A stretch of 64,000 bases of DNA from positions 442,085,816 through 442,149,815 of the forward strand of contig NC_066581.1 of assembly GCF_024323335.1 (NCBI RefSeq), in the 5' to 3' direction. Positions within the stretch are counted from its first letter, which is position 1; each line of letters begins with the position of its first letter. Source of the DNA: Lathyrus oleraceus. Taxonomy: Eukaryota > Streptophyta > Magnoliopsida > Fabales > Fabaceae. Below, in pieces: positions 193 to 46,240 of the stretch. The translations under genes and the position numbers were made by a program. The notes beneath the pieces were generated by a model, which saw only the letters and a program-made list of their open reading frames with translations, made no database searches and was not told where the DNA came from.

Positions 193-455
193 CCGTAGTA
201 CTCTACGGGATCCACTTTTGTAGTTCTTGTCTAAAGGGTATGGGTTTATCTAATGTGTTATTTACTAAAAAAAGGGGTCAAAAGAAAATGACTCGCACGG
301 ATGTCGCATCCACTGCATACGTATCTCATTTGAATATGAGAATTAGAGTCTTCGTAGCTCGGCTACCTAGGGGTTAAGGGTAATTGTGCTCGCTAAGACA
401 TCGCGTCTTATGCCTACGTATCTCATATGGAATGAGAATCAGAACAAGCCGTAGT
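193..455 (-). repeat. U5 stem-loop block of the first LTR
   Basis: Hairpins seen: CCGTAG/CTACGG around TACT (193-208); GGATG/CATCC around TCG (299-311), then TACGTA, then TCTCAT/ATGAGA (324-341); AAGAC/GTCTT (395-409), then GCCTACGTA (412-420), then TCTCAT/ATGAGA (421-437). Equivalent hairpins with different stems occur in the other LTRs (see findings). Confidence 0.7.
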
Positions 456-1403
456 TCGACTAACTACGGGGTTATGGATTGGGTTTTGGACGAACGACGT
501 TACTACGCAATCTACCGGATGCTCGACCTTTGGAGACTTACTCGCCTGTAGTAGAAGGAGTTAACGTGTTGCTTTGGGTTTTAGGGTTTGGGGGATGCTC
601 AAGGGCAAAAGGGCAGTCCTTGACGAAGGAACCTGTAAAAATAAAAAATAAAATAAACACACAAAAATATTGCCTCCTATCGAGGTCTTCCAGCTAAGAA
701 AGCGGTAAAAATATGGGAAAATGTAAAAGTACCACACGGATAAAGATCCGAAGTAACAGTAATTAACGGAACAAGGAAACCCTGAGATCCTTCCAAGCTA
801 ACACCATCAAAGAAAGTGAGTCAGTACAGGTAATCGGAATGAAACCTCCAGGTGGTATCCCACAAATAAAGTGGAACACCAGACAAACCATCTCTGCAAG
901 AGTCATATGAGCCCTCACAAAATAAAACTCAACAAACATGTTAGAGAAACAAAATAGGGTAACCAAGAGTTGCCCCCAAATCAAAATGTAACCACATGAA
1001 TCATGCCATTAAAATTCACAAAAAGCTCACAAAAAGCAACCAAGGGTAGGAGGCCTAAACCTCTTGTCAAACACATGCATCAAAAGGGTATCAAATTCAC
1101 CCATAATACCTCATACATTTAGAGCATTCAAATTAAAGGCATAAAGATGATGGATATAGGGCAAACCTGATTGGAGAGATCGGTTGAAATCAAATGGCAC
1201 GGCTGGATTTGCAAACCAATGTTAGGGTTTGCTTGAGCTGAAAGTGTGTGAGTCAGAATGAACCTTTCAGAGTTGCCTGGAGGTTGCTGCAGATTAATTC
1301 TCACTCTTTCTGTCTAGGTTTCTCTCCAGGTTTTGTCCAGGGTTTTGTTTCAAGGAAACCTCAGAGTATTTTGCTTCTCTTCCTTTTTCTGTTTGTTCTC
1401 CCT

Positions 1404-1411
1404 CTTTTATA
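1404..1411 (-). promoter_or_regulatory. putative LTR TATA box
   Basis: TATAAAAG on the minus strand, about 410 bases inside the U3 end of the LTR. The position and the orientation match the LTR. No transcription start is shown by the sequence. Confidence 0.45.
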
Positions 1412-1821
1412 ACCTGATTTTCATGGCTTTGTGGGCTCAAATGAGAGAGGTCCAAGTCTGATATTTTTTCTTTTGTTTATTTATTTATTTAATTTTATTT
1501 TTTTCGTTTTCCGTTTTTTTTCGATTTTCGTTTTTTTTGTGCATAACACGTGGGCTTCGCCTAGCGAGTATGACAGCTCATGAACAAACCTTTGCTCCTT
1601 TAAGATAAACGTTTTGACTGACGAATAGACCCCTGTTGGAAGTAACTCAACTCTTTCCCTTGTGTTGACCGATCATCTAAATAGAACCCACAAAGTGTCC
1701 TGGATGATGTTCAAGCTTCTTGGAGCTAATCCCGATTGACATGATGAAATGCAATGTATATAATGTTAAATGACCTAAAAATGAATGCGTGAATAAGGAG
1801 GGCAAATTTTGGGGTGTTACA

Positions 1822-3762
1822 GTTATGGTCTTCAATTCAAGAGAATCAAGTTCTAAGGATTCATAAAGTGACCTAGGATCAATTTGTTTAGGCAAACATT
1901 GCGCCCCTCATGAATCTTGGTTGCTAAGGCTATAAACTTCTTAGCTATTTACAGATAACTTGAACAAAAGATGAAATAGGATAACCATAGAGTGAGAGAA
2001 GAAATGTGCTCACAGTTAGAGAAATTGGGTTTAAATCTTATTTTTAAGAGTATGGTCGAAAGTATCCCTGGTTGGTCGAAGGCCAGTAATGACAACGACG
2101 TCGAAAAGAGTAAGGGTTATCATTATTCAGCAAAGATGAAATGTATTTGCCAAGCCCTACCAAAAGTAAAGGTTTGAGATGAACATGTTAGTGTTGTACT
2201 TGGGACCAGTTCTTGACTGTTGAATCAATTCAAAAATGCCTTAGTCTTTCCAGATTTATCCTTTCTTCCTTTCCACTTTGTTCAACCAATCGAGATAAGC
2301 TTCATTGTTGGTAGAGGGAGAAGAACGAAATACACTGTGGGGTGAATCCATAAAGCTTAACCCAAAGATTTTATCCTTAAACACACGAGGTTTATAGTAA
2401 GGTAAATAGGGAAAAAAATTGGTCAACTTAACAGGTTTTGCAAAAGATTTGGGTAAAGGACCAAAAGATGTATGAACACTACCTGAGATAGAAGTGAGAC
2501 CTTTAAATTTTCTCCTTCTGAAGTTAAACCCCACTAACGTTTTAATTTATGTTTTGTTAAAAATTATTAGTAATTAAATTATTTTATCTTTTCATTTAAA
2601 TGGTTAATTTTTTTGTCCCACAGTGGCCTAGGAAATTGGAACCATGATGGTAGGCGCTTGCACGTTGCTGATATGATAGTTGAGTGAAAACATGCATGGT
2701 GCCAATTAAATGGAGGAAGTCATTATGACAATGACATATGCATGATGTCTATAATATTGTTGTGAATTCGACTGAAAATGCTATATTTCTATCATACTGT
2801 AGATATGATTGAAAAATGACCTTTTTGGGGGGTATCTTTTAGCCGGAAAATTTGTGCTTAGTATTTTGACATGAATGTGTAATATAAAGGTATGAAAATG
2901 ATGAGTTTAAGATGACCATGCTATATTTTTGACATATTAATTGTTTTGACATAGGAGACGAATTCAACTTACCTATCAGGGGTTATAGGACTTAACATAT
3001 TCTTAAATCCATGGATTGGACGACTTAGAAGCATTTTCGACACCAGATTATAAGATTTGATAGGAGAACTATTCGACAAAGGATATTAGAGGATTTGAAG
3101 ACAATTTTTACAATGGCAGCAATTTAAGGAAGTTCAATAACTAGAGACACGTGGAAACACAGGAGAAGATAAAAACCCACGTAGCAAGATATGTGTCAAA
3201 TTATAGAGAAATAACTGTTATACACGGTTATTGATGTATATAGTATATAAATAGATTTTGTCTTTAGGACAAGGGTTCACATTTATCCTTAGAATTCACA
3301 TATTTGAGTAATAGAGATCAAGAATTCATGAGAAATGTATGAACTTGTGTCCCACTTTTAACTCAAACACCTTTTATCCAATTGTTTTGTTATTTTCCTC
3401 ATTTACTTTATCCTTTTTAAAAAATTATGCATTTACTTATTTACATTCTTATCCAATTTCCATAAATTCAAATATATAACCTTTTAACATGAACACATTT
3501 CTAAAACATATCACACAAAACGTCCTTAAGATTTTTTCGAGTTTAATCCTTTAAGTGAACTAAAATTTATCATTTGTTTACTAAAAACACTAGTATACAA
3601 GTTTATGATACCAAAATTCCTTAGCATATTAGCAGGAGAGTTGATAAGGTTTATGATTCTCTTGGAGATCAAATCCCAAATATTTATAGGATCCCTATTT
3701 GCAAGTGCGAGAAACGCAAGCATCCTTGGGGTGGCACGATCAGTATGGTTGGAAGTGTCTTC
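1822..3762. other. old unassigned DNA, no intact gene
   Basis: AT-rich DNA between two LTRs. Apart from the mobile-domain-like fragment at 2172-2534 I recognise no coding region. The stretch around 2940-3560 looks like a decayed plus-strand LTR, with TATAAATA at 3246-3253, but I cannot find matching ends. The rest shows nothing I can name. Confidence 0.5.
2172..2534 (-). pseudogene. plant mobile domain-like fragment
   Basis: An open stretch of about 92 codons continues past a stop into the same frame. It contains the string AYLDWLNKVERKKG, then IWKD, GIFELIQQSRTGP and KYNTNM. This pattern resembles the N-terminal part of plant mobile domain proteins (transposon-derived, PMD family), where a short charged segment precedes the mobile domain proper. 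At least two in-frame stops (before IWKD and before GIF) break it, and the mobile domain that should follow is absent. The assignment rests on remembered family pattern, not on a search. It may instead be the capsid-like part of an unrecognised retroelement. Confidence 0.4.
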
Positions 3763-6272: not shown

Positions 6273-6486
6273 TGTAGCGGGGTATTCGTTACCTTTAGAT
6301 TTATTGACTAAATCAAAAGTAAATCATACAATTCGAGTCGCCACCGCACTTCTATTTATCCAAAGGAAATGTTAGAAAGCAAACAAAAACCGAGAAGTTT
6401 TATCAAATCAAAAACTAATAAAAATGTCAGAGATCTGGGTAAGGGGGTTGGTTATGCAATGGGAAGGTTTTAAGCACCCAAAACAT

Positions 6487-6655
6487 CCTTAGTACTCTAA
6501 GGGAACCCTTTTTACAAATGATGTATGGTAGGTTGGTATTTGTGAAAAAATATTTGTGCAAACATGATTGGGGAGATGAGAAAAGAATATACAAGTTATT
6601 TATAATTTTGGGTTTGAATGGATAAACCCATTGCCTACGTACCATCACAAAGGTA
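6487..6655 (-). repeat. U5 stem-loop block of LTR S
   Basis: CCTTAG/CTAAGG around TACT (6487-6502). TGGGTTT/AAACCCA (6609-6630), then GCCTACGTA (6633-6641), then TACC/GGTA. Stem sequences differ from those in the other LTRs while loop and spacer are kept. Confidence 0.65.
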
Positions 6656-9600
6656 GGATCAAAACCTCGTAGCTCGGGGTAAAAATCTCAAAATAATTTG
6701 GTGAATAGATTGGTCAAAAGCCTTAAGGTCTTTTGTTATCAAAGGGAGAAAACTCAACCTAAAACCATAAATCCACCATGTGAGGAGAGCTTCAACATGC
6801 TAGTGAGGGGTTAACCCTATAATAAGCATGGAAGACTTATGGTCCAATCACTAAGAATACATGTGAGTATTATATCAAACTCTATGATAACTCAAACCTA
6901 ATAGCTAATGTTTATGAAAAGCTTTGGCAAAAGTGGCCATTGAAACCACAAAAACAATTGAGTGAGTTGTATTTACAAATGAAAAGTATTCACAAAATAA
7001 AGTCAAAGTTGACTTAAGATTCAATTCAAAATAAGTGTTATGAAAAGAGTTTGAAAAAAATCAAAGGCATAGTGCCTAGGTTTCTAATTTTGAAAGCAAT
7101 GTTAATGTTTGCACAAAAGTTTGGCTTGGGTTATAGTGGAGAGAAAAAGAGAAGTTCTAGATCCTAAACATGCAAAGATGAGGGAAGAGAAATAAAACCA
7201 CTTGGAGTTCCCTTCTTGAGATCATAAAGATGATCCAAGTTGCTCATTTCCTTTGGAATTAGCAAGCAATAAGCAATAAACTCAAGCAATCAAGCAAATA
7301 TTCAATCAAGCTCCTAGGAATCTTCCAATTGGCTTTTGTCTCTCTTGTCTTGGATGCTCATGACAATGGTCTTTCTAATAGCTCAAGTTTGGTATCCCTA
7401 TCACAAGAACACACAAATCAAAAAGTTCCACAATGCAATAAAAGAATGGACAAGAGTGAGTTTAGAATTAGGGTCCTTTCAATTCATCTTCAAGATTAAG
7501 CATTCTAAAGGCATGAGGCGTAGTTGCTCTTCAACATATTTAGCATTCTAAAGGCATGAGGCCTAGTTGCTCTTGAAAACTCCATTTAGCATAGGTAAGG
7601 TCCTAAATCTAAGTCCTTTCTCCATTTGCATTGGGTTCACACAAACAAAAACAAAACAAGCACAAGACAATAATATATACACAATAATATGCTCAAGTGA
7701 GCAAAAGGCAAATTGCATAAACATAAACATGAGCTCAAGTGAGAAAAGGGCAAAGACAAATGAATTAATGAGCAAGAAATTAAATTGTATTAAAGTAAAT
7801 TGCAAGAATTAAATGCTTGAATTAAAAGTTAGTAATTAGTAGTTAGTGTTAGTGTGCCATAAGGCAATTTAGCGCTATGTTAAACAATCATAAGTGGACT
7901 GAGGCCGGTCAATAAAACTATAGGCAAATAAACACAAGTTAGAGATCATGACTAGTAAGCCAAGCTCCTACAACTTGCCATGCCAAAAGAAAAGAATAAC
8001 GACCTTGTATGGATTTAGGTTTTTTGCTTGACCAAAAAGCAACCTATCTCTAATGCAAAGCAATTCACTTGATATTTTATCAAGATGAATTTGATTTGAA
8101 TCAAAGAAAGTTAAGCCCCTCATATGTCAAGGCTAACCATCAATCATTAACTCATTGGTCAAAAATAAAAAGAAGAAGAAGAAGATGGAAATGGAATGTA
8201 CATAATTGAAATTCAAATAACATAAGCAAAACACATTGACCAAATATGAATGGAATCAACATCAATCAATGGTAAACAGAAGTGAGATGAAGCTTAGAAG
8301 TCAAGAAACAATAAAAATATTTTTGGTAATTTTTGGAATTAAAATAATACTTGAATTAAAATAAACAAATAAAGGTCAAACTTCAAATCCAATTCAAATT
8401 AACTTGGAAAAGTCCAATTGGATCATTATAAGTCTAACATCGTCAAACTAGGTTTAAAAAAAATTTCACCATTTTTTGAAAACAGAAACTAATTTTAAAC
8501 AATTAAAAATGGAGAAAAATAACATAATTGGACTAAAATCTGAAATAAATCTGAAATAAATTAAGAAATTGATGAGAATATTTTTCATAGATTCATCATC
8601 ATCCAAAGATGTTAAGCAAATATTTTTGGCATTTTTGAATATTGAAAAGTATTTTAAATGAATTAAAAACAATCAAAAATGAAATAATTCACAAAAAATA
8701 TTAAATGGAATCACAAAAATAATTAAAAATCATTTTTAGAAACTAGAATTTAAGAGAAATTTTTTGCAATTGGTCCCATATTTTTGTGATTACAAATAAA
8801 GAAGTTATGAATTTTTAAAATAAAATGGAATAAAAGAAATTAAAATGAAAATTCAGAAATTGCAAAAAATCCACAGCGCTTGGATCTTGGTTCATTAATT
8901 GACGTGGCGCATCAAAAGGCTGGTAAACGCGCGCGCATGAAACACTTGAGTCAACAGCGTAGCACAGAGCATTTAAAATAGTCAACCAAACCAAGAGCCA
9001 AGATTAGATCTGAAGCAATGGATCCAAGGGCCAGGAACTCATCCACGTGGGGACGGTGGTGGAAACCACCGTCTTCTCTAGTGAACCTCACTGTTCCGGC
9101 CAGAGTTGCAGGTTTCACAACTTCAACCAAAATGCACGATCCATACATCATTCGAAAGATGGGGTGATGTACATCTACCCTGTACCCTTTGTTTCCACTC
9201 AAGATCCCTATAGAGAGAGAAATCTGAGATGAAAAAATATGGTGTTCAATCTGATCTTACTCAATTCACAAAATTAAAAGCACAAACCAATTGCCTCTCA
9301 CATGAGGACTTCAGAGGTACCAACCAAACCAAGCAATGCACTATATTAAGAGAGATTAGAATTAAAACAGTTTGAATATAAACCTTTGAAGTGCAGCTTT
9401 CAATGGCACGATCTGATCCAATTCTTCAGTGCAGCTTGCTCTTGAAGTAACAAAGAAAATAGGCTAAGGAATTGTAAGTTAAAGATCAACCAATGAAGTT
9501 GAAAATTGAACTTGAAAAATTGAGAGAAAAAATTAGAATTCCTTTGAGTGAGGGTTAGGGATTCAAATGTGCAGAGCTTTAGGCGCCTTTAGGTTGAAGT

Positions 9601-9876: not shown

Positions 9877-10069
9877 TGTCGCGGCGGGATTTTTCACGAG
9901 ATTAAGTATTGATTGAACTTAACCCGTTTGAAAAATATTTTAAATGCAAGAGTCGCCACCGTCTTTTATTTTATCCAAAAAGAGGAAGGGAAAAATAACG
10001 ATAAATCCCTTTAGAGTTACGGGTTCGGGGGTTGGTTATGCAAAGGGAAGGTATTAGCACCCTCTACAT

Positions 10070-10252
10070 CTGTGGTACTCCACAGGAACCTTTTTGCTTA
10101 TGTTTATGTGAATGCTTTGCTTTTTTCGCTTTGATCGTTTGATTGGGGAGATGAGAAAAGAACTTGATTTTATTGCTTTTGGACTCGATAAAGTCGTAGA
10201 CTTCATGCCTACGTATCTCCAAGGCGCAATGGAGAAATCAGAATCCACGTAG
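10070..10252 (-). repeat. U5 stem-loop block, Ogre1 3' LTR
   Basis: CTGTGG/CCACAG around TACT (10070-10085). AAGTC/GACTT around GTA (10191-10203), then GCCTACGTA (10207-10215), then TCTCCA/TGGAGA (10216-10235). Outer CTACG (10209-10213) pairs with CGTAG (10248-10252). Confidence 0.7.
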
Positions 10253-10879
10253 TTCTCCCAAAAGAAAAGGGGAAAGTCTGTTTTGTTGATTTTAGATTGG
10301 CATGTCTTGCCATCTCTTGCTCGACCTAGGCGGGAGGCTTCGAGACTGACACGTCCTTTTGAAAATGTTTTTAAACTGAAAAGCTAAAGCTGGCAAAAGT
10401 TTTGAATGAGCCTAAACCCTGAAACAATAAATAAATGGGCTCATTATAAGGAAGCCCAAGAGTAAGCTTGTGAGTGTGTGAAAATGGTTTCTTAAACGGC
10501 GACCGTTGGAATCGCATCGGGTTTCTCTTTTTTGGATTTTTCGATTTTTTAACATAAAACGTGAACAATACGATTAAACACATAATACAGAACATAAAAA
10601 ATGCGAGAAAGTAAATTATTACAACATAGTTAGCTATGAATAGTTAGTATTACGAATAGTCAGTTGAGTTAATCGAGCTGAAACTGAAACGAAACGGTTA
10701 GTAACAACATAAACAAATATAAAAAAACAATATAAATATTTACTTTAGACAAAATAAACATTTGATATAAATAAACATTTAAAAATAAACATTTAAACAA
10801 ATAATTAATTTAACTAACATTTAAATAAAACATATATGCAAAATAATAATAAAAGATAAACAATATTTAGTAAAAAAAG

Positions 10880-11092
<213 letters not shown>

Positions 11093-11155
11093 AGACAATA
11101 ATATATAGTAGACAAAAATATATATGTACATTTAGACAATAATATATAATAGACA

Positions 11156-11215
<60 letters not shown>

Positions 11216-11670
11216 TAAATAATATATTAAAACACATGTCGGCAAGCCGGAACTTTGCCGATTTCAGAGATAAGTGAAGAATATTACCTTGTGTGAAGAG
11301 GATGAACTTCTGATCGTCCAAATGATCGACCGAAAGCTGGAAACCGTCACCGACGCAGTGCTGGCTGCCTTCGTGAGTACCTGACTTCAACGTCGCTTTT
11401 GATCGGTGAAACGACGCCGGAATGAAATGAACCTTGGATATTTGTGACCTGGACTCAACGAACTTCAAAGATATGAAATCGGTTTTGTGTTTCGGTGAAT
11501 AATCGGGACGATTTTGGGTTACCGAAAATGAAGAACAAGTGAAATACGGTAATGCTTTTGGAAAAATATTTCTTTTCAATTCTCTATTTCTCTCACCACA
11601 CGTTTTTTTCTTACTGATCCACCTTTTTCTTTCTTTTTTTCTTACTAACCACATCTATATATATATATAT

Positions 11671-11910
11671 ATATATTTAGATTACTTAAACAATAAGAAA
11701 CCTAAAAAATATCTAACATAAATTAATAATATATATTTAGATTACTTAAACAATAAGAAACCTAAAAAATATCTAACATAAATTAATAATATATATTTAG
11801 ATTACTTAAACAATAAGAAACCTAAAAAATATCTAACATAAATTAATAATATATATTTAGATTACTTAAACAATAAGAAACCTAAAAAATATCTAACATA
11901 AATTAATAAT
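11671..11910. repeat. 60-bp tandem repeat, 4 copies
   Basis: A 60-base AT-rich unit starting ATATATTTAGATTACTTAAA is repeated four times with no change I can see. The 5' LTR has three copies at 24667-24846. Confidence 0.95.
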
Positions 11911-12593
11911 ATAATTTATATATTATATAATAATAATAATAATAAACTAATATAATATTAATCCTAATTAAATAAACTAATTAACAACTAAACATAATTA
12001 ATATTAAGCACAAATAATATTAAACGGCACACGATTAAAATACGATAAAATCGAGCGACACGAACGCGATAAAAACGATGACAATTTGCACAGCAAAACA
12101 GACAAATTGATAAAACCAATAAACCAGTAAACCGGTAAACCAGTAAAATCAACAACACGACTCAAACAGACTTGATTAAATCACACGGCACAACACGTAA
12201 TTAAATAAACAACCCTAGGCAATAATAAAATCAACACGACATCACGAAAAACATTGACAAACACAAATCACAAATAATCGGACAATACGAAAACTCTAAT
12301 ATATTCGAAATACAGTCAAAATACCGATAAACAAACAATTAAATAGATAAAAACGCACAAAACCTAATCGAAGCGATGCCACGCACAACAGAGATAAGTG
12401 AGATAAATACGAGGCAACGATATCAGCCAGGTTTTGCTAAAACAACGAAATACAACACGGTAAGCAACGAAAACACACAAAACCTAATCAAACCAGTTGT
12501 CACGCGAAGTTTAAGAAATTGAGATGAATACGAGACAACGAGATTAATCAAGATGTGGTCAACAAAGCCAAAGTCAAATTTTGGGGTGCGACA

Positions 12594-12612
12594 GATGCCC
12601 CTATTTAATTAA
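12594..12612 (-). other. Ogre1 polypurine tract region
   Basis: On the minus strand AAATAGGGGCATC abuts the LTR start TGTCGCACCCC. Ogre2 has the same core, ATAGGGGCA, at the same place, so this is the likely plus-strand primer. Confidence 0.7.
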
Positions 12613-12749
12613 CTTAGGCCAGATAGCCGGAGGCTATCGAATGGCGTAAGGTAATTAAATATGACAAACGCCAAAAAATTTGACCGCAAATGCATGTATG
12701 CATGATGCAAAAGACAGACAGACACAGAGACACAGGAGTGCAAACTCTA

Positions 12750-13850
12750 CTGGGGAAGGACATACACCGACTCAATGCATGAAGGTAAACACTGCGAACA
12801 CTCAGCTGGGGAAGATTCACTACCTATTCATAGATGGAAAATAGGAGGAAAAGAGATATCGACTCAATGCATGACGATACATCACTATCTCATAGATGAA
12901 AGTGGGAAAAGATCAATATAACAAGAGTACTGATGTGACAGTACATTACCAACTCAAAGATGGAGGTAACAGAAAAGATGAATACCAACTCAAGGATGAA
13001 GGTATAACAAGGGCATAATAAGAATCGAACTGCGTTGACTCATGGTTGATAGCTCACTACCCACTCATTGATGAGGTAAACAGGACATGCCAACTCAAAG
13101 TTGAAGGCAAGCTTCAAAAGATTGATAATAACACTGCTAGGGAAATCAAATTCCAACTCATTGATGATGGTGTAGATGAAGAATCAGATCTAAGGATCAT
13201 TGTGCAGACTTACAGCTGAATGCACACTACCAACTCATTGATGAGGTAGACAGAGAAATGCCGACTCAAAGTTGAAGGCAACCACCGATTCATTGACAAA
13301 GGTGTTTAAAAGAATTTAGAACATATTTTCCTGGAGATGTTTATCATTACCGACTCAAAGATGACGGTGGAAGGACAAAATGTACCTAACTCATAGATGA
13401 AGGTACTCCATCAACTCAAAGACGAAGATGGAATCAGAAGTTATCTGTGCAGACTCAAAGATGAAAGCACACTATCAGTTCAACAAGGATCAAACATACC
13501 CTACTCATAGATGAAGGTACTCCATCAACTCAAAGACGAAGATGGAATCACAGGAAAATGTGCGAACTCAAAGATGAATGCATATTACCAGCTCAAAGTT
13601 GCAGGTACTTCACCAACTCAAAGACGAAGGTGGAATCAAAAGGAATCTGTGCTAAACTCAAAGACGAAAGCACGCTACCAACTCAAAGTTGCAGGTAGAA
13701 CCATGGAACTTTCTGTGAGGATGTTATCAACTCATAGATGGAGATAGTAATTAATTTATCCTAGGGATAACAAAGGTTACCACTCATGGATGTAGGTAAC
13801 TCAAGTTTGTAACGGGTACCAACTCAAAGATGAAGGCATAAAGGACTTGG
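12750..13850 (-). repeat. Ogre1 3' UTR hairpin array (ACTCA..GATGA loops)
   Basis: Some two dozen degenerate units share the loop core ACTCAAAGATGA (variants ACTCATAGATGA, ACTCATTGATGA) flanked by short inverted arms. Arms differ between units but stay complementary: TATCG/CGATA (12857-12879), CACT/AGTG (12883-12904), TTACC/GGTAA (12946-12969), ATACC/GGTAT (12982-13005), TGCC/GGCA (13259-13280), CACC/GGTG (13283-13304), GTACC/GGTAC (13382-13406), CCATC/GATGG (13408-13431), TGTGC/GCACA (13446-13471), GTGCT/AGCAC (13649-13673), GTTACC/GGTAAC (13776-13800). Tat/Ogre 3' UTRs are known for variable tandem repeats; stem covariation is my observation. Confidence 0.85.
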
Positions 13851-14285
13851 ACACAATATCTGTCATGTCTGTTTTACTGAATGAGAGTCACAAAGACTAT
13901 ATTGTTGCCTTCTTTTACTGGCAATTTCTGAGCTTTATCTGGAGACACGAGGTTCAAACTAGGATAGAACTAGAATGAAACGGTCAAACAAGACTTCAAC
14001 TGAAGAGGAATGAACTCATCAGGATTTACAACTGAAACAACCATCTTCCACGAGGCATAGATCTCTGTGGGGAACATGACCAATAAAAGGTATTTTGCTG
14101 CTTATGAGGATACTCTATATGGAGAGATTGACTCAACCCACAATATAAACAAGGAAACAAGGTGCATATGAATGCAAGCATGATATGTCATAGATATGCA
14201 TGAATATTTAGTAATGAATGCATGATGGACAGACAAAACTAGGAATAACTAAAAATGTTAACAGCTGCATAAGGACTTGCTGGAG

Positions 14286-15060
14286 ATTTGCACTGAGACT
14301 CGCTAGGGAGTAGTACAAAGACTTGCTGGGGAATTGGTACAAGAGCACCATATCCAGGTTTCTTTAAAAGTCTGTCTCTACTGAGGTTTCTGTAGAAGAA
14401 TGGAGATGCCTTCTTCTTCAAAAATACAGGAGATCCCCTCTGGTTTTTGAATTCATGAGGTATATGAGGATTGGACCTTTCTGAGGACTCCGCTGGGGAT
14501 ACAAGGTGTTATCCTCTAGAAATAAGATGATATTGTAAGAGAAGTCCTGCAATTCTTGAATTTGCTGATAATGCAGAAGGGATTATTCTTCTAGAAGACT
14601 CCGCTGGGGATAAAGTCCGCTGGGGATAGGTGGTATCTTTCCAGGGAATAAGAATATAGGGGAAATCCATCCTTGATTTTTTTGCTTTAATTATCATGGA
14701 GACTTTCTGTATCTGAAGACTCTGCAGGGGATTATGGTGTCTGATATCTGGTTACGAGATCTTTCCTCTAGGAGACTCTGCCGGGGAACAGTGATGTCTG
14801 ACCTTTGAATGTAAATGAGAATTCAGGAGGAATCCTGTAATTCTTGAATTTGCTTAAAATGCAACACACTCTTCTTTACTACAAAACATTACTGAGGAGG
14901 AGACATATCCTTCTATTGAATGGACAGAGAACAACAAGAGATTCCCTGTAGTTTCTGAATATCAACTTTCTTCACTCGCTGAGGGATGGAGACCTCTGTA
15001 TTACTCCTGCTTGGGGAAATCAAAGCTTCCTTCTCATCCTCTGCTGGGGACATTGCTGAT
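14286..15060 (-). repeat. Ogre1 3' UTR PBS-like microrepeats
   Basis: The plus strand carries repeated GACTCYGCTGGGGA-type words: 14486-14499, 14597-14610, 14615-14625, 14718-14731 and 14774-14787, plus shorter GCTGGGGA copies near 14320 and 15041. They match the core of the primer binding site (TGGCGACTCTGCTGGGGA) but on the opposite strand. The element RNA would therefore carry sequence like the tRNA 3' end and complementary to its own PBS. Confidence 0.7.
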
Positions 15061-15109
15061 CCCTCCTTAATAAATTACTGGGGAAATACCTGTAGTAATC
15101 CCATAGGCC

Positions 15110-15770
15110 AAATCTGTAACTTAAAACCTGGATCAAAGTCTTCATGATCAATTAACCGGGGAGTCTTCATGCCCCAAGTGAAGGGAACAATCTTCTTGAA
15201 ATATTTCTTGCATGATCTCTTGAGGAAAACTAGGAAGCAAAACTGGGGATATCCAGAATTACAACCTCTGCTGGAGAAATATTACTGCCAAGACACCTGT
15301 GGAGATCTTTTCATCATATACATATGAGGATAGTAACATGAACATGTCTAGTTGGAATCACATGATTTTAGAATTACTGCGACCGCATGTCTCAATCCTT
15401 TTATTGATGTCCACAAATCAAAGTAAAGAATCTTTATAGTTTTCAAAAACTGTTTTTAATTCAAAACTTTTGTTTCAAAACATATCTGTCAAAGTAAAAG
15501 AACTTTCGTAAATTGAAATGAAAATTAAGAGTGCCAAGAAATATAGAAAGGCTCAAATTGATTTGATAGGATGGTAATCAGCCAACAGCATGATTCCATA
15601 TATCTTTACAAATTGGAAAATGGTAATTTCGTGGAAAAAGGGTACGTTGAAATACAATGACATCATTCTCTCTTCCACTTTTGAAACCTGTATTGCAGCC
15701 TTAAGAACGTTGGAGAACTGTTGAAAATATTCTGATACTTCAATGATCTTGTCTCCGTTATGCAGTTACT
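15110..15770. other. Ogre1 3' UTR, remaining non-coding part
   Basis: Low-complexity non-coding DNA between the microrepeats and the pol-proximal hairpins. I see no open frame with family similarity and no further repeat. Confidence 0.5.
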
Positions 15771-15774
15771 TGCC

Positions 15775-15950
15775 TGAAATCCCTAACTTTTGCCTAGATT
15801 GCCCTTTCGGGTTTTCAATCTACCGGGATAATATTTTCTTTGTTTTTTATGTCTCTAATTTTTGCCTGGACCGCCCTTTCAGGTTTTCAGTCCACCGAGA
15901 CGCTCATTTTTGCCTAAGCCGCCCTTCGGGTTTTCAACTTAGCGAGTTGT
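15775..15950 (-). repeat. Ogre1 pol-proximal hairpin array
   Basis: Three units share TTTGCC..GCCC..TTCGGGTTTT and carry inverted arms that differ between units: TAGATTG/CAATCTA (15795-15822), TGGAC/GTCCA (15867-15894), CTAAG/CTTAG (15914-15942). The same module with other arms follows pol in Ogre2. Confidence 0.75.
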
Positions 15951-15962
15951 TCTTTTCATTTT

Positions 15963-16727
15963 TTAGGCGAAGTATTTCTTGACTGCATCTGTATTCACGG
16001 GACGTGGAAGCTCTTCACCATCCATGTTTGTAAGAATTAAAGCACCGCCTGAGAAGGCTTTCTTGACAACATAGGGTCCTTCATAATTAGGAGTCCACTT
16101 GCCCCTAGAATCATTGTGAAATAGTATCATCTTCTTGAGTACAAGGTCACCCTCTTTGAATTCTCTCGGCTTAACCTTCCTATCAAATGCCTGCTTCATT
16201 CTCTTTTGATATAACTGTCCATGGCACAAGGCAGTCATTCTTTTTTCGTCAATCAAATTCAACTGATCGTATCTGCTTTGACACCATTCAGCCTCTGACA
16301 ACTGAGTTTCCATTAGTATCCTCATTGATGGAATTTCAACCTCTATCGGTAACACAGCTTCCATACCGTATACAAGTGAAAATGGGGTTGCCCCAGTTGA
16401 AGTACGGACTGATGTTCTATATCCGTGTAGTGCAAAAGGCAGCATTTCATGCCAATCTTTGTAGGTAACAACCATCTTTTGAATGATCTTCTTGATATTC
16501 TTATTTGCAGCTTCAACTGCCCCATTCATCTTGGGACGGTAAGGAGAAGAGTTGTGATGCTCGATCCTGAAACTTTCACATAATTCATCCATCATTTTGT
16601 TGTTCAGATTGGAGCCATTGTCAGTGATGATCTTGTTTGGAATGCCATATCGGCAAATGAGATTATTTTGATGAATCTGACCACCACTTGCTTTGTCACC
16701 TTTGCATACGAAGCTGCTTCCACCCAT
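15963..16727 (-). CDS. pol: Ogre1 pol, integrase catalytic and C-terminal part (frame 3)
   Basis: A frame of 254 codons. Its first 20 or so codons are out of register with integrase; authentic sequence starts at NNLICRYGIP (near residue 21). The second catalytic aspartate is in IITDNGSN (D36) and the glutamate in KMNGAVEAANKN (E72), which completes a DDE triad with the aspartate in the upstream frame. Then come KDWHEMLPFALHGYRTSVRT, the TPFSLVYGMEAVLP motif and a C-terminal basic domain with FDRKVKP and GKWTPNYEGPYVVKK, typical of Ty3/gypsy integrases. The protein ends at a normal stop just before the 3' UTR. It is joined to the upstream pol only if a frameshift near 16661-16675 is ignored. 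Confidence 0.85.
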   Translation of the reverse strand: MGGSSFVCKGDKASGGQIHQNNLICRYGIPNKIITDNGSNLNNKMMDELCESFRIEHHNSSPYRPKMNGAVEAANKNIKKIIQKMVVTYKDWHEMLPFALHGYRTSVRTSTGATPFSLVYGMEAVLPIEVEIPSMRILMETQLSEAEWCQSRYDQLNLIDEKRMTALCHGQLYQKRMKQAFDRKVKPREFKEGDLVLKKMILFHNDSRGKWTPNYEGPYVVKKAFSGGALILTNMDGEELPRPVNTDAVKKYFA

Positions 16728-19207: not shown

Positions 19208-19423
19208 TGCTCCAATTTTGACTTCTTTTTCACATTTTCTTCTGAACCCAAGTTGACTGTTTCCAAAGGCTCCTTGTATGGCTGAATAGTGTCTTCTTCA
19301 TTTTCAAGCTGGCGGGCGACCTCTTCTGGAATCTCATCCCACTCTTCCTCTTCAGCTTCGAATACAGAATGTTCAAAGTTGGGAGAGGGCATGATGTCAT
19401 TGTGTTCAACGGGTTTAAGTAAC
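19177..19423 (-). CDS. pol: Ogre1 pol exon 2, 5' end before frameshift
   Basis: Acidic linker that begins the pol exon (LLKPVEHND, AEEEEWDEIPEEVARQLENE, then VNLGSEENV). Two extra A bases in an A-run near 19226-19232 shift the frame. In the corresponding Ogre2 stretch VNLGTEE leads directly into KEVKIGAAL and the RT. Splicing at 19423/19424 puts this linker in frame with the end of gag. The last 15 or so codons of the open frame are out of register. Confidence 0.75.
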
Positions 19424-19665
19424 CTGTACAAACAATTGTTTTTAGAGGACTGACCATGCCATGCAAAAATGTGTTCTTTTTAAGGTTTTTTTGTGTTACC
19501 ATTTTCCGAAAAAGCTGAAAAGATAAAAGGACACAAGTGTATAGGAACACAAAAGATCTTTTTCATGGATAGTACGTTTTTGACAAAAGTGCCCATTTTA
19601 CAAAATTAATGCTTCGCGCTTTGGGCTAAAGCGGAAGGTTTTTGAAAACTGAAAAGCTTAATTAC
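19424..19665 (-). other. Ogre1 gag/pol intron, 242 nt
   Basis: The donor GTAATT overlaps the gag stop codon and the acceptor is TGTACAG. Removal joins ..HIS-K to LLKPVEHND in frame across a split AAG codon. Ogre elements are known to splice an intron between gag-pro and pol. The unspliced RNA ends at the stop inside the donor, which would give gag-only product. Confidence 0.75.
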
Positions 19666-20348
19666 TTTGATATGTGGACACAATGTGGGATGTCAACTGC
19701 GGTCCAGTTCTTCATAACTACTCCAGTCTCCATTCTGTCTTTCCCTCGAAGAGCTTTTATCTCTTTTTGTAATTCCGCAAACTGATCCTGGAATTCATCC
19801 ATTCTATCATTGAGACCAGGATCCTCACTTGGGGTAGGGCCGTGATAGACAGGTTCTCCTAGGTGAGGAGTATAGTGAACAATGGGAGGCACATTAGTGA
19901 AGACAGGAGCATTTGGTGGAACGAACTCTTGTTGATATCTATCTTGATTAAGATCCCTGGGTATTGCCCAAGGACGGGATGCTGTGATGGTAACAGAAGT
20001 GACTGGGACAACGTTGATTTCTGAAGCGATGACTGTAGTGACGGGTGCTGCTGTTGTCTGATTCTGAATTTGAGGTTGATTCTGTGCCGAAGTCTGTCCT
20101 GAATTATGAACTTGAGCCCTAGCCTGGGCTTCCTCTACTTGTAGACGGGCGGTTAACATTTGGTTGCGCATCTCTGCTGCCTGTGCTTGCGCCTGGATCT
20201 GTGCATCTTGTGCTTCGGCAACCTGAGCTTGTGCTGTTTGAAGTTGAGCAGCTTGGGCTGCTTGGTTTGCTATCAGTGTCTCGACCATAGCAGAAAGGCG
20301 GTCAACCTGAGCTTTCAATTCTCGGTTCTCGTTATCTGTTATCTCCAT
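19666..20348 (-). CDS. gag: Ogre1 gag, internally deleted, joined to pol by splicing
   Basis: It starts MEITDNENRELKAQVDRL, a charged coiled-coil, followed by an Ala/Gln-rich helix (about residues 28-85), a Pro/Thr/Val linker and DRMDEFQDQFAELQKEIKAL (about 180-200). This is the N-terminal layout I expect of Ogre gag. Straight after ALRGKD it jumps to METGVVMKNWTAVDIPHCVH, which matches the segment at the very end of gag-pro (compare GMEIQNWKAEKIITVTL in Ogre2). The capsid, zinc knuckle and protease are therefore missing, yet the frame stays open and still leads to the intron donor. The encoded protein of 228 residues is about one third or less of a usual gag-pro. Confidence 0.8.
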
Positions 20349-22088: not shown

Positions 22089-22796
22089 GTTTCCGGCAAT
22101 ATTTGCAATTCTCACTTTAAGTTCCTTGGAAAAAGGTTGAAATGATGGGAATGAATGCATGTCATGCATGAATGCAACAAACACAAACATGGTCAAACAA
22201 TACAAGGTTCAAAGTTCATCACCAGCATGGAGTTTAGGACAAAGCCCTAAGATAAGTTCTAAGGTTCACCTGCCAAACGGGTTCTAAAAGTTCCCAAGGT
22301 TATGGATCCTTCTTCGGATAATACCGGGTTAAGCAACTGCTCGCTTTCCAATATTATTCTCAAAAGAATCTTGCTTGAGTGTGATATCGCGTATCAACCA
22401 AACCAGACTTTTGGTCCGAAGTGGTCACCGCATCACATCCTAAGTAAGGCCAAGATGGGGTAAAGGTAAACTAAGGTCCTTGGCTTCACGGGCCCGTCGA
22501 AAGCAACAATGCCTCACAAATGACTTGTTTAGCACTATCACCCTCAAAGAGGCCTCCACCAAGCGGACAAAGGCTCAAGTCAACTCGGTAAGGATTGTCT
22601 CCTATCAAGTCAACCTGAATTATCATCCATCCTATCTCAAATGTGCCCCAAATCCGGGTATAGGATTTATCACAAGTATCCCCCAAAACCCAAAATAACA
22701 AACATTACAAACAATACAATTTAGCAAATATTCACAAAGCAAACATATAAACAAGCAAAGATAGGCTAAACCCTCAAATAAGTTTTAATCATGTAT
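22089..22796 (-). other. Ogre1 5' untranslated leader
   Basis: About 700 bases between the PBS and the ORF1 start. It is non-coding as far as I can see. Confidence 0.6.
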
Positions 22797-22814
22797 TCCC
22801 CAGCAGAGTCGCCA
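22797..22814 (-). other. Ogre1 primer binding site
   Basis: TGGCGACTCTGCTGGGGA on the minus strand, three bases after the LTR end. It is complementary to a tRNA 3' end finishing GTCGCCA. Ogre elements are reported to use tRNA-Arg; I have not verified the isoacceptor. Confidence 0.85.
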
Positions 22815-23010
22815 TTCTGTCGCGGCGAGATTTTTCACGAGATTAAGTATTGATTGAACTTAACCCGTTTGAAAAATATTTTAAATGCAAGAGTCGCCAC
22901 CGTCTTTTATTTTATCCAAAAAGAGGAAGGGAAAAATAACGATAAATCCCTTTAGAGTTACGGGTTCGGGGGTTGGTTATGCAAAGGGAAGGTATTAGCA
23001 CCCTCTACAT

Positions 23011-23193
23011 CTGTGGTACTCCACAGGAACCTTTTTGCTTATGTTTATGTGAATGCTTTGCTTTTTTCGCTTTGATCGTTTGATTGGGGAGATGAGAAAA
23101 GAACTTGATTTTATTGCTTTTGGACTCGATAAAGTCGTAGACTTCATGCCTACGTATCTCCAAGGCGCAATGGAGAAATCAGAATCCACGTAG
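23011..23193 (-). repeat. U5 stem-loop block, Ogre1 5' LTR
   Basis: Copy of the 10070-10252 block with the same stems: CTGTGG/CCACAG at 23011-23026, AAGTC/GACTT at 23132-23144, GCCTACGTA, TCTCCA/TGGAGA. Confidence 0.7.
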
Positions 23194-23821
23194 TTCTCCC
23201 AAAAGAAAAGGGGAAAGTCTGTTTTGTTGATTTTAGATTGGCATGTCTTGCCATCTCTTGCTCGACCTAGGCGGGAGGCTTCGAGACTGACACGTCCTTT
23301 TGAAAATGTTTTTAAACTGAAAAGCCAAAGCTGACAAAAGTTTTGAATGAGCCTAAACCCTGAAACAATAAATAAATGGGCTCATTATAAGGAAGCCCAA
23401 GAGTAAGCTTGTGAGTGTGTGAAAAGGGTTTCTTAAACGGCGACCGTTGGAATCGCATCGGGTTTCTCTTTTTTGGATTTTTCGATTTTTTAACATAAAA
23501 CGTGAACAATACGATTAAACACACAATACAGAACATAAAAAGTGCGAGAAAGTAAATTATTACAACACAGTTAGCTATGAATAGTTAGTATTACGAATAG
23601 TCAGTGGAGTTAATCGAGCTGAAACTGAAACGAAACGGTTAGTAACAACATAAACAAATATAAAAAAACAATATAAATATTTACTTTAGACAAAATAAAC
23701 ATTTGACATAAATAAACATTTAAAAATAAACATTTAAACAAATAATTAATTTAACTAACATTTAAATAAAACATATATGCAAAATAATAATAAAAGATAA
23801 ACAATATTTAGTAAACAAAAG

Positions 23822-24079
<258 letters not shown>

Positions 24080-24152
24080 TTTAGACAATAAATATATAGT
24101 AGACAAAAATAATATATATGTACATTTAGACAAATAATATATAATAGACAAA

Positions 24153-24201
<49 letters not shown>

Positions 24202-24666
24202 TAGATAGATAGATAGATAAATAATATATTAAAACACATGTCGGCAAGCCGGAACTTTGCCGATTTCAGAGATAAGTGAAGAATATTACCTTGTGTGAAG
24301 AGGATGAACTTCTGATTGTCCAAATGATCGACCGAAAGCTGGAAACCGTCACCGACGCAGTGCTGGCTGCCTTCGTGAGTACCTGACTTCAACGTCGCTT
24401 TTGATCGGTGAAACGACGCCGGAATGAAATGAACCTTGGATATTTGTGACCTGGACTCAACGAACTTCAAAGATATGAAATCGGTTTTGTGTTTCGGTGA
24501 ATAATCGGGACGATTTTGGGTTACCGAAAATGAAGAACAAGTGAAATACGGTAATGCTTTTGGAAAAATATTTCTTTTCAATTCTCTGTTTCTCTCACCA
24601 CACGTTTTTTTCTTACTGATCCACCTTTTTCTTTCTTTTTTTCTTACTAACCACATCTATATATAT

Positions 24667-24846
24667 ATATATTTAGATTACTTAAACAATAAGAAACCTA
24701 AAAAATATCTAACATAAATTAATAATATATATTTAGATTACTTAAACAATAAGAAACCTAAAAAATATCTAACATAAATTAATAATATATATTTAGATTA
24801 CTTAAACAATAAGAAACCTAAAAAATATCTAACATAAATTAATAAT
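24667..24846. repeat. 60-bp tandem repeat, 3 copies
   Basis: Same unit as 11671-11910, with one copy fewer. Confidence 0.95.
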
Positions 24847-25526
24847 ATAATTTATATATTATATAATAATAATAATAAACTAATATAATATTAATCCTAA
24901 TTAAATAAACTAATTAACAACTAAACACAATTAATATTAAGCACAAATAATATTAAACGGCACACGATTAAAATACGATAAAATCGAGCGACACGAACGC
25001 GATAAAAACGATGACAATTTGCACAGCAAAACAGACAAATTGATAAAACCAATAAACCAGTAAACCGGTAAACCAGTAAAATCAACAACACGACTCAAAC
25101 AGACTCGATTAAATCACACGGCACAACATGTAATTAAATAAACAACCCTAGGCAATAATAAAATCAAGACGACATCACGAAAAACGCTGACAAACACAAA
25201 TCACAAATAATCGGACAATACGAAAACTCTAATATATTCGAAATACAGTCAAAATACCGACAAACAAACAATTAAATAGATAAAAATGCACAAAACCTAA
25301 TCGAAGCGATGCCACGCACAACAGAGATAAGCGAGATAAATACGAGGCAACGATATCGGCCAGGTTTTTCTAAAACAACGAAATACAACACGGTAAGCAA
25401 CGAAAACACACAAAACCTAATCAAACCAGTTGTCACGCGAAGTTTAAGAAATTGAGATGAATACGAGACAACGAGATTAATCAAGATGTGGTCAACAAAG
25501 CCAAAGTCAAATTTTGGGGTGCGACA

Positions 25527-26790: not shown

Positions 26791-28513
26791 CTCTTATGCA
26801 TCTCCTTCTTTTCCCTTTGATCAATTGGATGGCTTGTGTCCATCTTGTTCATGATGTATGGACTGGTACTTGATGAACTTTCATCATTTCAAATCTACCT
26901 TATAATTGATCATGGATCATTTAAGGTGCTTTGGATTGATGCATACGTTTATCCTAAGTGTCATGAAGTGTGAATTGAAGTAACGAACCATCCTCCTAGC
27001 CTTTGTGTTTGATCCTCCCTTTTTCTTTTTTGTGTGGCATGTCTTTAGGAGAATGATTTACATATCATTTATATAGCATGTATTAACACAAACGTTATTA
27101 TTGACTGAACACAGATAGTTGTGACTTCTACATAAGTCCAATTACGATTACGTAACATAGCGTTAAATTTGTCCCACTGAAAACAAAGGCATTTTTATAA
27201 GTGAGATTGTAAGTCTCCTATTCCTCATGGTATTGTGTGAAAATGTTGCTCCTTTTCTATTTGCGAGAGCTAGTGGCATAACTGTTGATTTTATTCAAGT
27301 TGGAGCCCTTCTAATGAATGGTGTATAGGATCATATTTTCATGTTTGTGAGTGGATAGTTGAGTGTTCTCGGTAAAATGACCAAAACATCTTTTCATCTC
27401 TTACTAACATCCTTTACTAACACTTTACTTGTATTAACCTTTTACTTCAAAGTCATTTACTTTATGCTCTTTTATTTTTATGCCATTTACTTTAGAATTT
27501 ATGTTTAGCATTTCATATCATATTGTTTGTGATTATGTCATTTGTTCTTTGGACTTTACTTTCATATCTTTGTAAAGAAAACATTAATAAAGAAAACACC
27601 TAAAAATAAACTTGGTTATCCTGATTCATTGACTTGTGGTTACTATCCTTAACATCATTGTGGTGTTATTGACTTATAATTAGGACCTTGTCCTTTTATT
27701 TGGATTTGTGATTTGAGATCTTGAGATTCATCTAATACCTTTGACTTTGGACTACCTCTAGAGATTTGGTTGAGTTAATTTGCTTTCATTTGATGCATGG
27801 GTTATTATTTGCTTATTCTGGCTTACTTGAGGCTTAATCCAAATGAGGGAATTCTTTCTTGACTTATGTCATAAAGCTTTTATATTTCTTGGTTAGATCT
27901 TTCCTTCCTAGATTTTACTTTATGCTCTAGGATAGTCTCTTCTTCTTCTCCCCTTTCTTTAATTTTCAAAAGCTTCTCTCTTTTTCAAAACCTTCTTGTT
28001 TTTTAAACTTGAACACTTTCTCAAAAAACCTTTATTTTTTATCAAGTGATTTTCAAAACCTTTTTCTTAATAAATGCTAATCTATCTTAAGCATATACAT
28101 ACCAATTTTAAGACATTAAAAAAACGCCTCACTCATTTAAATCATTTTTGTGCCCTTTGTGCACTTTTTCTTTTTAAAGAAAACTTTTCCCAGAGCATTA
28201 GACATGACTCATTTCCATAGTTGACATATAATTCTCCTATCCCCATAGCATTTATGACAATTCTTTTCCATTTGTGATAGCTAGTGGCATGCTTGTTGAT
28301 CTTAATCCAATTTGGAACCTTCTCATGATGATGAAAGTACTCATACTTGTGGGTGACTAGTTGATTATTCTCCTTAAAATGACAAAATGTCTTCTCATTA
28401 AAAATGAATAAAAACAAAAATCTTGGTACGTAGGCATGAGACTTAAAAAGTCTTGGCAAATACAAAAATCATAAAAAAAATTCTTTTCCCATCTCTCCAA
28501 TCTTTTTTACAAA
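26791..28513 (+). mobile_element. old plus-strand LTR 'P', right part
   Basis: It resumes P after S. Near its right end, read on the reverse strand, it has the U5 words of the minus-strand LTRs: GCCTACGTA (in 28426-28438), and a GATTGGAGAGATGGGAAAAG stretch (28480-28502) like the one near 10141. Here they run in the opposite direction, which supports plus orientation. The U5 end is cut off by the Athila insertion at 28514. Confidence 0.55.
28426..28453 (+). repeat. U5 stem-loop of LTR P
   Basis: TACGTAGGC followed by AGACTT/AAGTCT (28439-28453). It is the inverted counterpart of the GCCTACGTA module in the minus-strand LTRs, with its own stem. Confidence 0.55.
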
Positions 28514-39258: not shown

Positions 39259-39260
39259 AT

Positions 39261-39984: not shown

Positions 39985-40160
39985 TGTCGCAACGCGAAAA
40001 ACAACCGGCGGAAAAAAACAGAGTCGCCACCGACGCTATTCATCCTATGACGGAAACGGAGCGCAGGACTAACCTAAGAAAGGGAAAGGAACGGTCTTAC
40101 GACCAGAGATTTCGAGGTACGGGAGTCGGTTACGCAAGGGGGAGGTATTAGCACCCCTCA

Positions 40161-40450
40161 CGTCCTTCGTACTTGACGGGATCCACGCTCAAAAGATAGC
40201 TCAAAGAATAGGAAAAGGTTGCTAATAAAACTGCTCAAAGAAATTGCACAAACTGGAATAATAAACAGGTGAAAGAAGAAAGAAGACGGAGGAAATGGAC
40301 TCCGCAGGATGTTGCATCCTGGGCCTACGTAGTTTGTCAGAAACAAACATCAGAGTCAAAGTAGTTCGGGGAAAGGGAGACATGCTCGCTAAGACATCGC
40401 GTCTTATGCCTACGTATCTTCTCTATCCAGAGAAGAATTAGAGCACTCGT
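40161..40450 (-). repeat. U5 stem-loop block 1, Ogre2 3' LTR
   Basis: CGTC/GACG enclosing a TACT-containing loop (40161-40178). AGGATG/CATCCT (40306-40320), GCCTACGTA (40323-40331), GTTTGT/ACAAAC (40332-40348), with outer CTAC/GTAG closing at 40361. Second copy: AAGAC/GTCTT (40391-40405), GCCTACGTA (40408-40416), TCTTCTCT/AGAGAAGA (40417-40436). Confidence 0.7.
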
Positions 40451-41074
40451 AGCTCGGCTAACACACGCTGAAACAAGACACCAATAGGGACGCTGAGACG
40501 TCAAAAGAAACACCCAAAAGGAAACAGAATGCCAATACATGGACTTATATCCGACTCCCAACAATAACAAAGAAAAGGAAACAGAATGCCAATACATGGA
40601 CTTATATCCGACTCCCCACAATAACAAACACTAACCAGCGAACACCACAGAAAAAGGTTATCAGAATGAACCCCAACAGAGTAATCAAATATCCAAATAT
40701 GAACCCCAAAGAGGAACCCCAAGTGAATAACCATCGTCATAAATGATCCCCAATATGAACCCCCAAGTAACAACCGTTATAGATGAACCCCGAGATGAAC
40801 CCCAAGTAACAACAACCGTCACAGATGAACCCCGAGATGAACCCCAATATGAATGACAACCGTCATAAATGAACCCCAATATGAACCCCAATATGAACCC
40901 CAACTTGAATGACAACCGTCATAAATGAGCCCCGAATAATAACAGAAGAAATTCCCAAGGTATAAACATACCACCACACACACGCTGAACAGACGGGTAC
41001 TCACACCAAAACAAAGAAAAGGGTGAACACACACAAAAACAACACAGCAAAAAAAGAAAAAAAAGGTGCCCGGA

Positions 41075-41135
41075 GAGATTGCTCGCAACCTCCTGCCTAC
41101 GTATCTCATCTGGTATGAGAATCAGGGCGACGTAG
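41075..41135 (-). repeat. U5 stem-loop block 2, Ogre2 3' LTR
   Basis: A third copy of the module: GAGATTGC/GCAACCTC with one mismatch (41075-41092), GCCTACGTA (41096-41104), TCTCAT/ATGAGA (41104-41120), outer CTACG/CGTAG (41097-41101 with 41131-41135). Copia C inserted 57 bases further on. Confidence 0.7.
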
Positions 41136-46220: not shown

Positions 46221-46240
46221 TCCAGTTTGTTACGCTTCTT

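Follow-up and report, generated by a model that had tools for sequence, protein, structure and literature searches.

The closest described counterparts of the RNA fold reported here come from viruses, a mouse retroelement and rice. The HIV-1 packaging signal, with its tandem three-way junction core, lies in the 5' leader (PMC11499389); the exonuclease-resistant RNAs (xrRNAs) of mosquito-borne and insect-specific flaviviruses have a three-way junction that engages nucleotides of the 5' end in pairing, and are present twice in some viruses (PMC5760640); and among the MTE/RTE export elements of MusD, a mouse long terminal repeat (LTR) element, the MTE is a pseudoknot-bearing export RNA (PMC12786077). 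Rice Retrosat2 has a very long LTR with a 2-kb R and a U5 conserved within Oryza, and so resembles Ogre LTRs in its length, its long transcribed part and its conserved U5; the portion of the text covered reports no RNA structure in that LTR (PMC3485330). Here we describe a conserved, structured RNA domain in the 3' portion of the LTRs of Ogre, the element that chiefly drives variation in genome size among Fabeae (PMC4659654), starting from a stretch of 64,000 nucleotides of Lathyrus oleraceus (contig NC_066581.1, positions 442,085,816 to 442,149,815; hereafter the window) that holds element C, which by its domains and ends is an Ogre (OTA/Tat) LTR retrotransposon, and the further LTRs A, B, D and P. 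An earlier note on this DNA had listed covarying hairpins in the U5 of five diverged Ogre-type LTRs. The two LTRs of element C are identical over both modules described below and count once.

The hairpins of the earlier note fall into two modules, of which one, module 2, is a three-way junction of about 80 nt in the sense RNA, formed by a closing stem, P1, and two hairpins, P2 and P3. Read 5' to 3', it consists of CUACG, 1-4 nt, the 5' strand of P1, UGAU, P2, U[ACGUAG]GCA, P3, about 2 nt and the 3' strand of P1. The joining strand J12 carries the conserved UGAU, and J23, between P2 and P3, carries the near-invariant UACGUAGGC. By class, P1 reads UGCUC/GAGCA, GACUC/GAGUC, AACUC/GAGUU, CGCCC/GGGCG or GGUUU/AAACC. 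Both hairpins that had been described for this module exist, the right one being P2 and the left one P3, but the unit is not two hairpins around a spacer, and the closing stem had been missed, as had a probable pseudoknot and the second hairpin of module 1. The covariance model R1, whose training set included one element C copy (that of the 5' LTR), finds eight full-length copies in the window (E 7e-16 to 1e-12) and, besides, one partial match (E=0.065), the fragment at 28439.

Module 2 has no match among known RNA families: none of the 4227 Rfam covariance models matched the window at its gathering score, and none matched loci L018, L070 and L103 at E up to 2. In the literature searched, a body that leaves most subscription journals and the main Ogre papers outside it, no such structure is described for Ogre or other plant LTRs; a match of the motif in print (PMC2077865) is a maize actin primer and due to chance. 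Module 2 is like the HIV-1 signal in being a three-way junction in what is most likely a 5' leader, and unlike it in its size, its reiteration (1-4 times), the lack of an Rfam match, and a Gag binding that we only infer. With the flaviviral xrRNAs it shares the junction, the probable pairing with 5'-end sequence and the multiple copies; it differs in lacking an L3-S4 signal, in a pairing of 5 bp and in lying in a retroelement LTR rather than a viral 3' untranslated region. From the MusD elements it differs in location and host and again in having no Rfam match, and an export role would here be putative.

To assess covariation, 158 modules were collected, 145 of them distinct, with candidates required to contain A[AC]GTA[GT]GC. 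The search pattern favours an odd letter in the 3' stem and so enriches decayed copies, for which reason modules were clustered and one medoid was kept per cluster. The resulting family alignment (A1), made with MAFFT without structure information, has 28 rows (27 clusters and one added row). A filter removed 8 of 154 candidates, among them two real modules (L027 and L056) and the P fragment; L056 was restored (it is mis-registered and partial in A1 and correct in the 145-module set), and the L027 module and the P fragment stayed out. Twelve modules of the 145-module set were added, 11 of them from regions fetched for an altered J23, a choice that works against the pseudoknot. In A1, with a structure drawn from the same sequences that were counted, standard pairs fill 85.8% of 628 cells compared to 69.7 ± 1.0% after shuffling of the 3' letters, and sliding the partners by 1-3 columns leaves only 32-44% paired. 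Both sides have changed at 18 of 23 pairs. RNAalifold, given no structure, recovered 12 pairs (4 in P1, 2 in P2 and 6 in P3), all with two-sided changes.

Because related copies inflate shuffle tests, we used a tree-based null, in which independent columns undergo F81-like changes on a FastTree tree at rates fitted to parsimony counts, a test that is R-scape-like but is not R-scape. Against this null, the covariation sum of the structure in A1 was 254 compared to 7.9 ± 13.5 (reached in 0/300 simulations), and the six best-ranked of 2415 pairs all belong to the structure, only one of them at E<0.05. Across the 145 modules, each helix exceeded the null in all 400 simulations: P1 with a sum of 394 (null 5.8 ± 24.7), P2 with 498 (13.9 ± 37.3) and P3 with 564 (7.7 ± 32.5). 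Seven pairs in this set reach E<0.05, six of them within P1-P3 and one next to the pseudoknot. Changes on the tree number about 2 to 15 for either side of the P1-P3 pairs. The structure of module 2 is thus well supported, and selection appears to keep the folded RNA itself. The earlier note had read the paired changes as conserved RNA structure and had named a covariation test beforehand as what could refute this; the covariation found bears the reading out within this genome.

The conserved CUACG just 5' of P1 probably also pairs with CGUAG in J23, which would turn the junction into a pseudoknot; support for this pairing is moderate, whereas that for P1-P3 is strong. The covariation sum of this helix across the 145 modules was 70, compared to 0.2 ± 6.6 for the null (0/400 simulations); in A1, three of its six pairs are invariant and hence silent. 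A compensated class carries CTACTT/AAGTAG in place of CTACG/CGTAG, so that 16 of the 145 rows have U-A, 122 have G-C and 7 have other combinations. The pair that adjoins the pseudoknot (E=0.018) links the nucleotide preceding CUACG with the final nucleotide of ACGUAG in J23: GCUACG goes with CGUAUGC (29 rows) and ACUACG with CGUAGGC (114 rows), with two exceptions, as if the helix shifted its register. TACGTA, earlier taken for a fixed spacer, did not survive as such, the palindrome being lost in the class that pairs AAGTAG with an upstream CTACTT. The same 16 of 145 rows led us to reject a self-dimerising TACGTA palindrome as the conserved property.

Module 1 consists of two abutting hairpins. 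H1 is the hairpin previously described by its TACT loop, which in the sense RNA is AGUA; H2 directly abuts it and surrounds the conserved TTAGCACCC block, its arms AUGNN..GGG and CCC..NNCAU standing on either side of the conserved UGCUAAUACC, and a weaker GGUU/AACC pairing forms the outer closure. In the corrected reading, the letters of Block B are TTAAGCACCC. Over 12 family rows, 89.2% of 240 cells are paired, again in a structure drawn from the sequences counted, compared to 78.0 ± 1.3% when shuffled; two-sided changes occur at 5 of 6 pairs of H1, 5 of 10 of H2 and none of the outer stem, and unguided RNAalifold recovers H1 and H2. Against the tree null (11 clusters and L015:631-723) the sum was 69.5 compared to 3.2 ± 6.1 (0/300), with one structure pair, plus one pair outside the structure, individually significant. 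L015:631-723 (plus strand) itself belongs to another LTR family, in which the loop of the module-1 fold is AUAA and H2 is perfectly paired over 10 bp (AUACAAAGGG/CCCUUUGUAU).

An RNA selected in the sense orientation tolerates G·U and not A·C, and constraint on DNA or on an antisense RNA gives no such bias, so that an excess of G·U over A·C points to sense RNA. Among the 145 modules the ratio of G·U to A·C was 110:17 in P3, 43:19 in P2 and 20:26 in P1 (173:62 for P1-P3 together); in the family rows it was 40:18 (P1 2:3, P2 11:8, P3 27:7), and in module 1 it was 26:2 (19:0 in H1 and H2, 7:2 in the outer stem), all counts coming from related rows and so not being independent. Thus P2, P3 and module 1 favour sense RNA over DNA, a point less firmly supported than the fold, and P1 and the pseudoknot add nothing to it.

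Both modules are abundant. The exact pattern of module 1 occurs 52,905 times in the genome (0 for the reversed-pattern control), and that of module 2, with a letter other than A before UACGUAGGC, 112,091 times (control 197). Among the LTR copies at the first 30 module-1 places listed, 29 carry one to four module 2 copies on the same strand within 1.5 kb upstream (R1 at E up to 0.01; 3 of 76 matches lie elsewhere): one copy in 2, two in 12, three in 13 and four in 2, with none in L015. Within one LTR, the stems of the copies differ and the fold is kept. R1 also matches loci outside its training set (L003, L007, L008, L024, L050, L054 and L068). The module 2 copies lie about 116-990 nt 5' of module 1, the end of the nearest roughly 100 nt away, and module 1 lies about 200 nt 5' of the primer-binding site (PBS). 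A TATA[A/T]A motif is found upstream in 30 of 60 loci, which says little by itself; in family A, a TATA-bearing stretch about 1.2-1.3 kb upstream of module 1 can be aligned across several copies, and transcription starting there would place the modules within the 5' leader. Judged from these positions, the modules most likely belong to the 5' leader of the genomic RNA and would lie between promoter and PBS, the zone that is the usual site of retroelement leader signals. For LTR D, a TATA box at about 41532 was rejected: it lies inside a copia-type LTR (41190-42555) nested in D.

The proposed U5-side location stands, and the strand does not: element C runs on the minus strand (PBS at 22814), so the letters that had been quoted must be reverse-complemented to give the RNA. 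The hairpins themselves were all found, on the plus strand, at 193-208, 6487-6502 and 10070-10085, with the imperfect one at 40164-40179, and at 299, 324, 395, 6609, 10191, 10216, 28439, 40306, 40332 and 40417, the fragment at 28439 being the only listed site in plus-strand sense. The TGGGTTT/AAACCCA stem at 6609 exists but competes with the family fold, in which P3 is AAUGG/CCAUU and P1 is closed by AAACC/GGUUU. The distal module of LTR D and the copy in the 5' LTR of element C had not been listed.

We propose that these modules form a structured RNA domain whose reiterated units dock Gag/nucleocapsid for packaging, a reading to which we give a probability of about one half. The 5' leader would usually carry one to four three-way junctions, followed by module 1. 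Each module 2 would be a protein docking site, most likely for the element's own Gag/nucleocapsid, so that the array could act as a multivalent packaging and genome-selection signal, and module 1 would hold the PBS-proximal leader ready for annealing of the primer and for reverse transcription. A protein-docking RNA is suggested by the position, the reiteration and the conserved junction letters (UGA and UACGUAGGC).

A number of observations weigh against this proposal or the fold behind it. All sequences analysed come from one genome, the 3.8-Gb genome of the window itself, and binding of Gag is guessed from where the modules lie and from their reiteration. Just 7 of 2346 pairs in the 145-module set are individually significant at E<0.05. 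In A1 the outermost P1 pair is open in 14 of 27 rows; of the P2 pairs, two in the middle are open in 10 and 12 of the 27 rows, chiefly in the short-P2 GGUUU class; P1 shows no strand bias. The single-sequence fold is modestly stable (mean pair probability 0.46-0.55), with a mean z of -1.15 in sense compared to -0.68 in antisense (sense lower in 15 of 21), and in the minimum-free-energy structure of the element C segment P1 and P2 form and other pairing replaces P3. As for the pseudoknot, a single pair carries its covariation sum, pair six is not formed in 22 of 27 rows of A1, and the U-A class arose once on the tree, as the only clear compensatory event. Copies with ACATAG in J23, fetched on purpose, mostly keep CTACG: of 10 rows with A in this position, 9 are mismatched (A·C) and one has CTATG. 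Many of these copies are probably products of methyl-CpG decay; those of L095-L097 look like a family. Over all 145 modules, the pseudoknot cells hold 15 A·C and 3 G·U.

Other functions would fit parts of the same evidence. If the pseudoknot ties the 5' strand into the junction, module 2 might stall 5'-3' decay, either protecting the leader or yielding a trimmed, uncapped RNA for packaging. The probable pairing of CUACG, directly 5' of P1, with J23 gives it a topology like that of flaviviral xrRNAs at one point; the pairing is, however, 5 bp rather than two nucleotides, no Rfam family is matched, and a second pseudoknot of the L3-S4 type is not seen, complementarity between the P3 loop and downstream sequence exceeding that of a row's own shuffles in 10 of 21 testable rows (7 of the 28 were not testable; mean 3.9 compared to 3.6 nt). 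Membership in the flaviviral class was rejected on this absence, and an exonuclease-stalling function seems to us doubtful. Equally doubtful is its wider form, in which a reiterated, pseudoknotted three-way-junction RNA class with more than 100,000 copies in one plant genome would use an xrRNA-like 5' strand tie, independent of viruses, to shield or trim retrotransposon RNA for packaging. A slightly less probable role is that of a nuclear-export or translation element for a long, partly unspliced RNA, like the MTE of MusD, the constitutive transport element (CTE) of Mason-Pfizer monkey virus or an internal ribosome entry site. Reiterated, conserved unpaired motifs suit a CTE-like design. The introns of Ogre are functional, and in mouse the MTE is a precedent for a pseudoknotted export element (PMC12786077), but spliced transcripts would presumably carry the modules in their leader just as unspliced ones would, and here too no Rfam family is matched.

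The leader structure might instead serve mainly reverse transcription, by placing the primer tRNA or assisting strand transfer. In favour of this stand the position of module 1, about 200 nt 5' of the PBS, and a PBS-like copy in U5: each of the five LTR 3' ends in the window (two are identical) repeats the beginning of the PBS within the LTR, and in 57 of 60 LTR copies the 12-nt GGTGGCGACTCT is matched upstream of the true PBS with 10 or more letters agreeing (3 of 600 shuffles), most commonly as GGTGGCGGCTCT (27 of 60). This copy may be a kept PBS decoy or a second tRNA site. Module 2, by contrast, varies in number and in distance, which a fixed step of reverse transcription would not need, and we regard this role as a still weaker candidate. 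Least probable by far are inverted repeats at the DNA level, whether sites for transcription factors or traces of recombination, that have no function as RNA. TACGTA is the core of the bZIP A-box, Ogre LTRs are rich in repeats, and P1 and the pseudoknot lack a G·U excess; yet the sense strand has more G·U than A·C in P3, P2 and module 1, the AAGTAG class loses TACGTA and keeps the pairing, and covariation across several helices of a junction is not expected of DNA sites. Reiterated docking of Gag/nucleocapsid remains the reading we favour.

The features in the window are listed below.

Coordinates of LTR modules and element C features in the window (positions count from its first letter)
Feature	Position	Strand	Remarks
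Module 2, LTR A proximal	285..364	-	R1 73.9 bits, E 5.6e-15
Module 2, LTR A distal	382..461	-	R1 78 bits, E 6.6e-16
Module 2, LTR B	6606..6679	-	R1 66 bits; P1 GGUUU/AAACC, P3 AAUGG/CCAUU, short P2
Module 2, element C 3' LTR	10177..10259	-	R1 63.5 bits
Module 2, element C 5' LTR	23118..23200	-	R1 63.5 bits; identical to 3' LTR copy
Module 2, LTR D proximal	40293..40371	-	R1 71.8 bits
Module 2, LTR D middle	40378..40459	-	R1 76.8 bits
Module 2, LTR D distal	41062..41142	-	R1 66.1 bits
Partial, decayed module 2, LTR P	28405..28457	+	R1 16.1 bits, E 0.065 (weak), model positions 20-71; P3 AGACTT/AAGTCT retained
Module 1, LTR A	151..216	-	H1 CCGUAG-AGUA-CUACGG, then H2
Module 1, LTR B	6446..6511	-	
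Module 1, element C 3' LTR	10029..10094	-	
Module 1, element C 5' LTR	22970..23035	-	
Module 1, LTR D	40123..40188	-	H1 imperfect, H2 compensated ACG/CGU
PBS-like copy inside element C LTR	22891..22902	-	sense CGGTGGCGACTC; 85 nt before true PBS
Same PBS-like motif	41-52, 6335-6346, 9950-9961, 40021-40032	-	
5' LTR of element C	22818..25526	-	ends TGTCGC...GCGACA, 5-bp target-site duplication CTTTC
3' LTR of element C	9877..12593	-	ends TGTCGC...GCGACA
PBS of element C	22797..22814	-	TGGCGACTCTGCTGGGGA, 18 nt, starts 3 nt past 5' LTR end GCGACA at 22818
Open reading frame inside element C, just past PBS	21363-22205	-	matches DUF7745, not the named plant mobile domain model

Element C spans 9877-25526 on the minus strand, with LTR ends read by eye and of the TG..CA type, and CTTTC flanks it on both sides. 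Its PBS is a putative tRNA-Arg site, the type that Ogre elements have. All seven open reading frames (ORFs) of at least 250 aa in the window are on the minus strand, and those of element C match RVT_1, RT_RNaseH, RVT_3 and Integrase_H2C2 above the Pfam cut-off, with rve under it (24.8 compared to 32.6 bits). The domain set thus comprises reverse transcriptase, RNase H, a second RNase H-like domain (aRH) and integrase. aRH is reported to be a mark of Tat elements, and 57% of Ogres to have an extra ORF with a plant mobile domain (PMC6317226). The ORF just past the PBS is presumably this extra ORF. Element C is Ogre-like in its 5-bp target-site duplication, its domain order from reverse transcriptase through RNase H and the second RNase H-like domain to integrase, and presumably also the ORF between PBS and pol. 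Both of its LTRs also contain long, near-palindromic (TA)n-like arrays (10730-11230 and 23646-24230) and 60-bp tandem repeats (11609-12017 and 24605-24953).

Two further elements lie at higher coordinates in the window. A copia-type element (41190-48229; gag on the minus strand) is nested within LTR D and looks very recent, its LTRs being 99.8% identical. A Tat-type relative (50000-61264; LTRs 50000-52275 and 58989-61264) encodes reverse transcriptase and integrase, and its pol DNA is 71% identical to that of element C; its LTRs are unlike those of element C, and a different sequence stands at the place of the PBS. R1 finds no module 2 in this relative at E up to 1, and module 2 is therefore not universal among relatives; the element serves well as a negative reference.

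To our knowledge, little is known about how the genomic RNA of plant LTR elements is singled out to be packaged, exported or reverse-transcribed. The module, which is compact, reiterated and strongly covarying, offers a testable cis-element, and R1 provides a handle for tracing it in other species. Binding by Gag would make module 2 a reiterated packaging signal in a plant Ty3/gypsy element, and stalling of exonucleases would mean that xrRNA-like folds also occur in a new setting.

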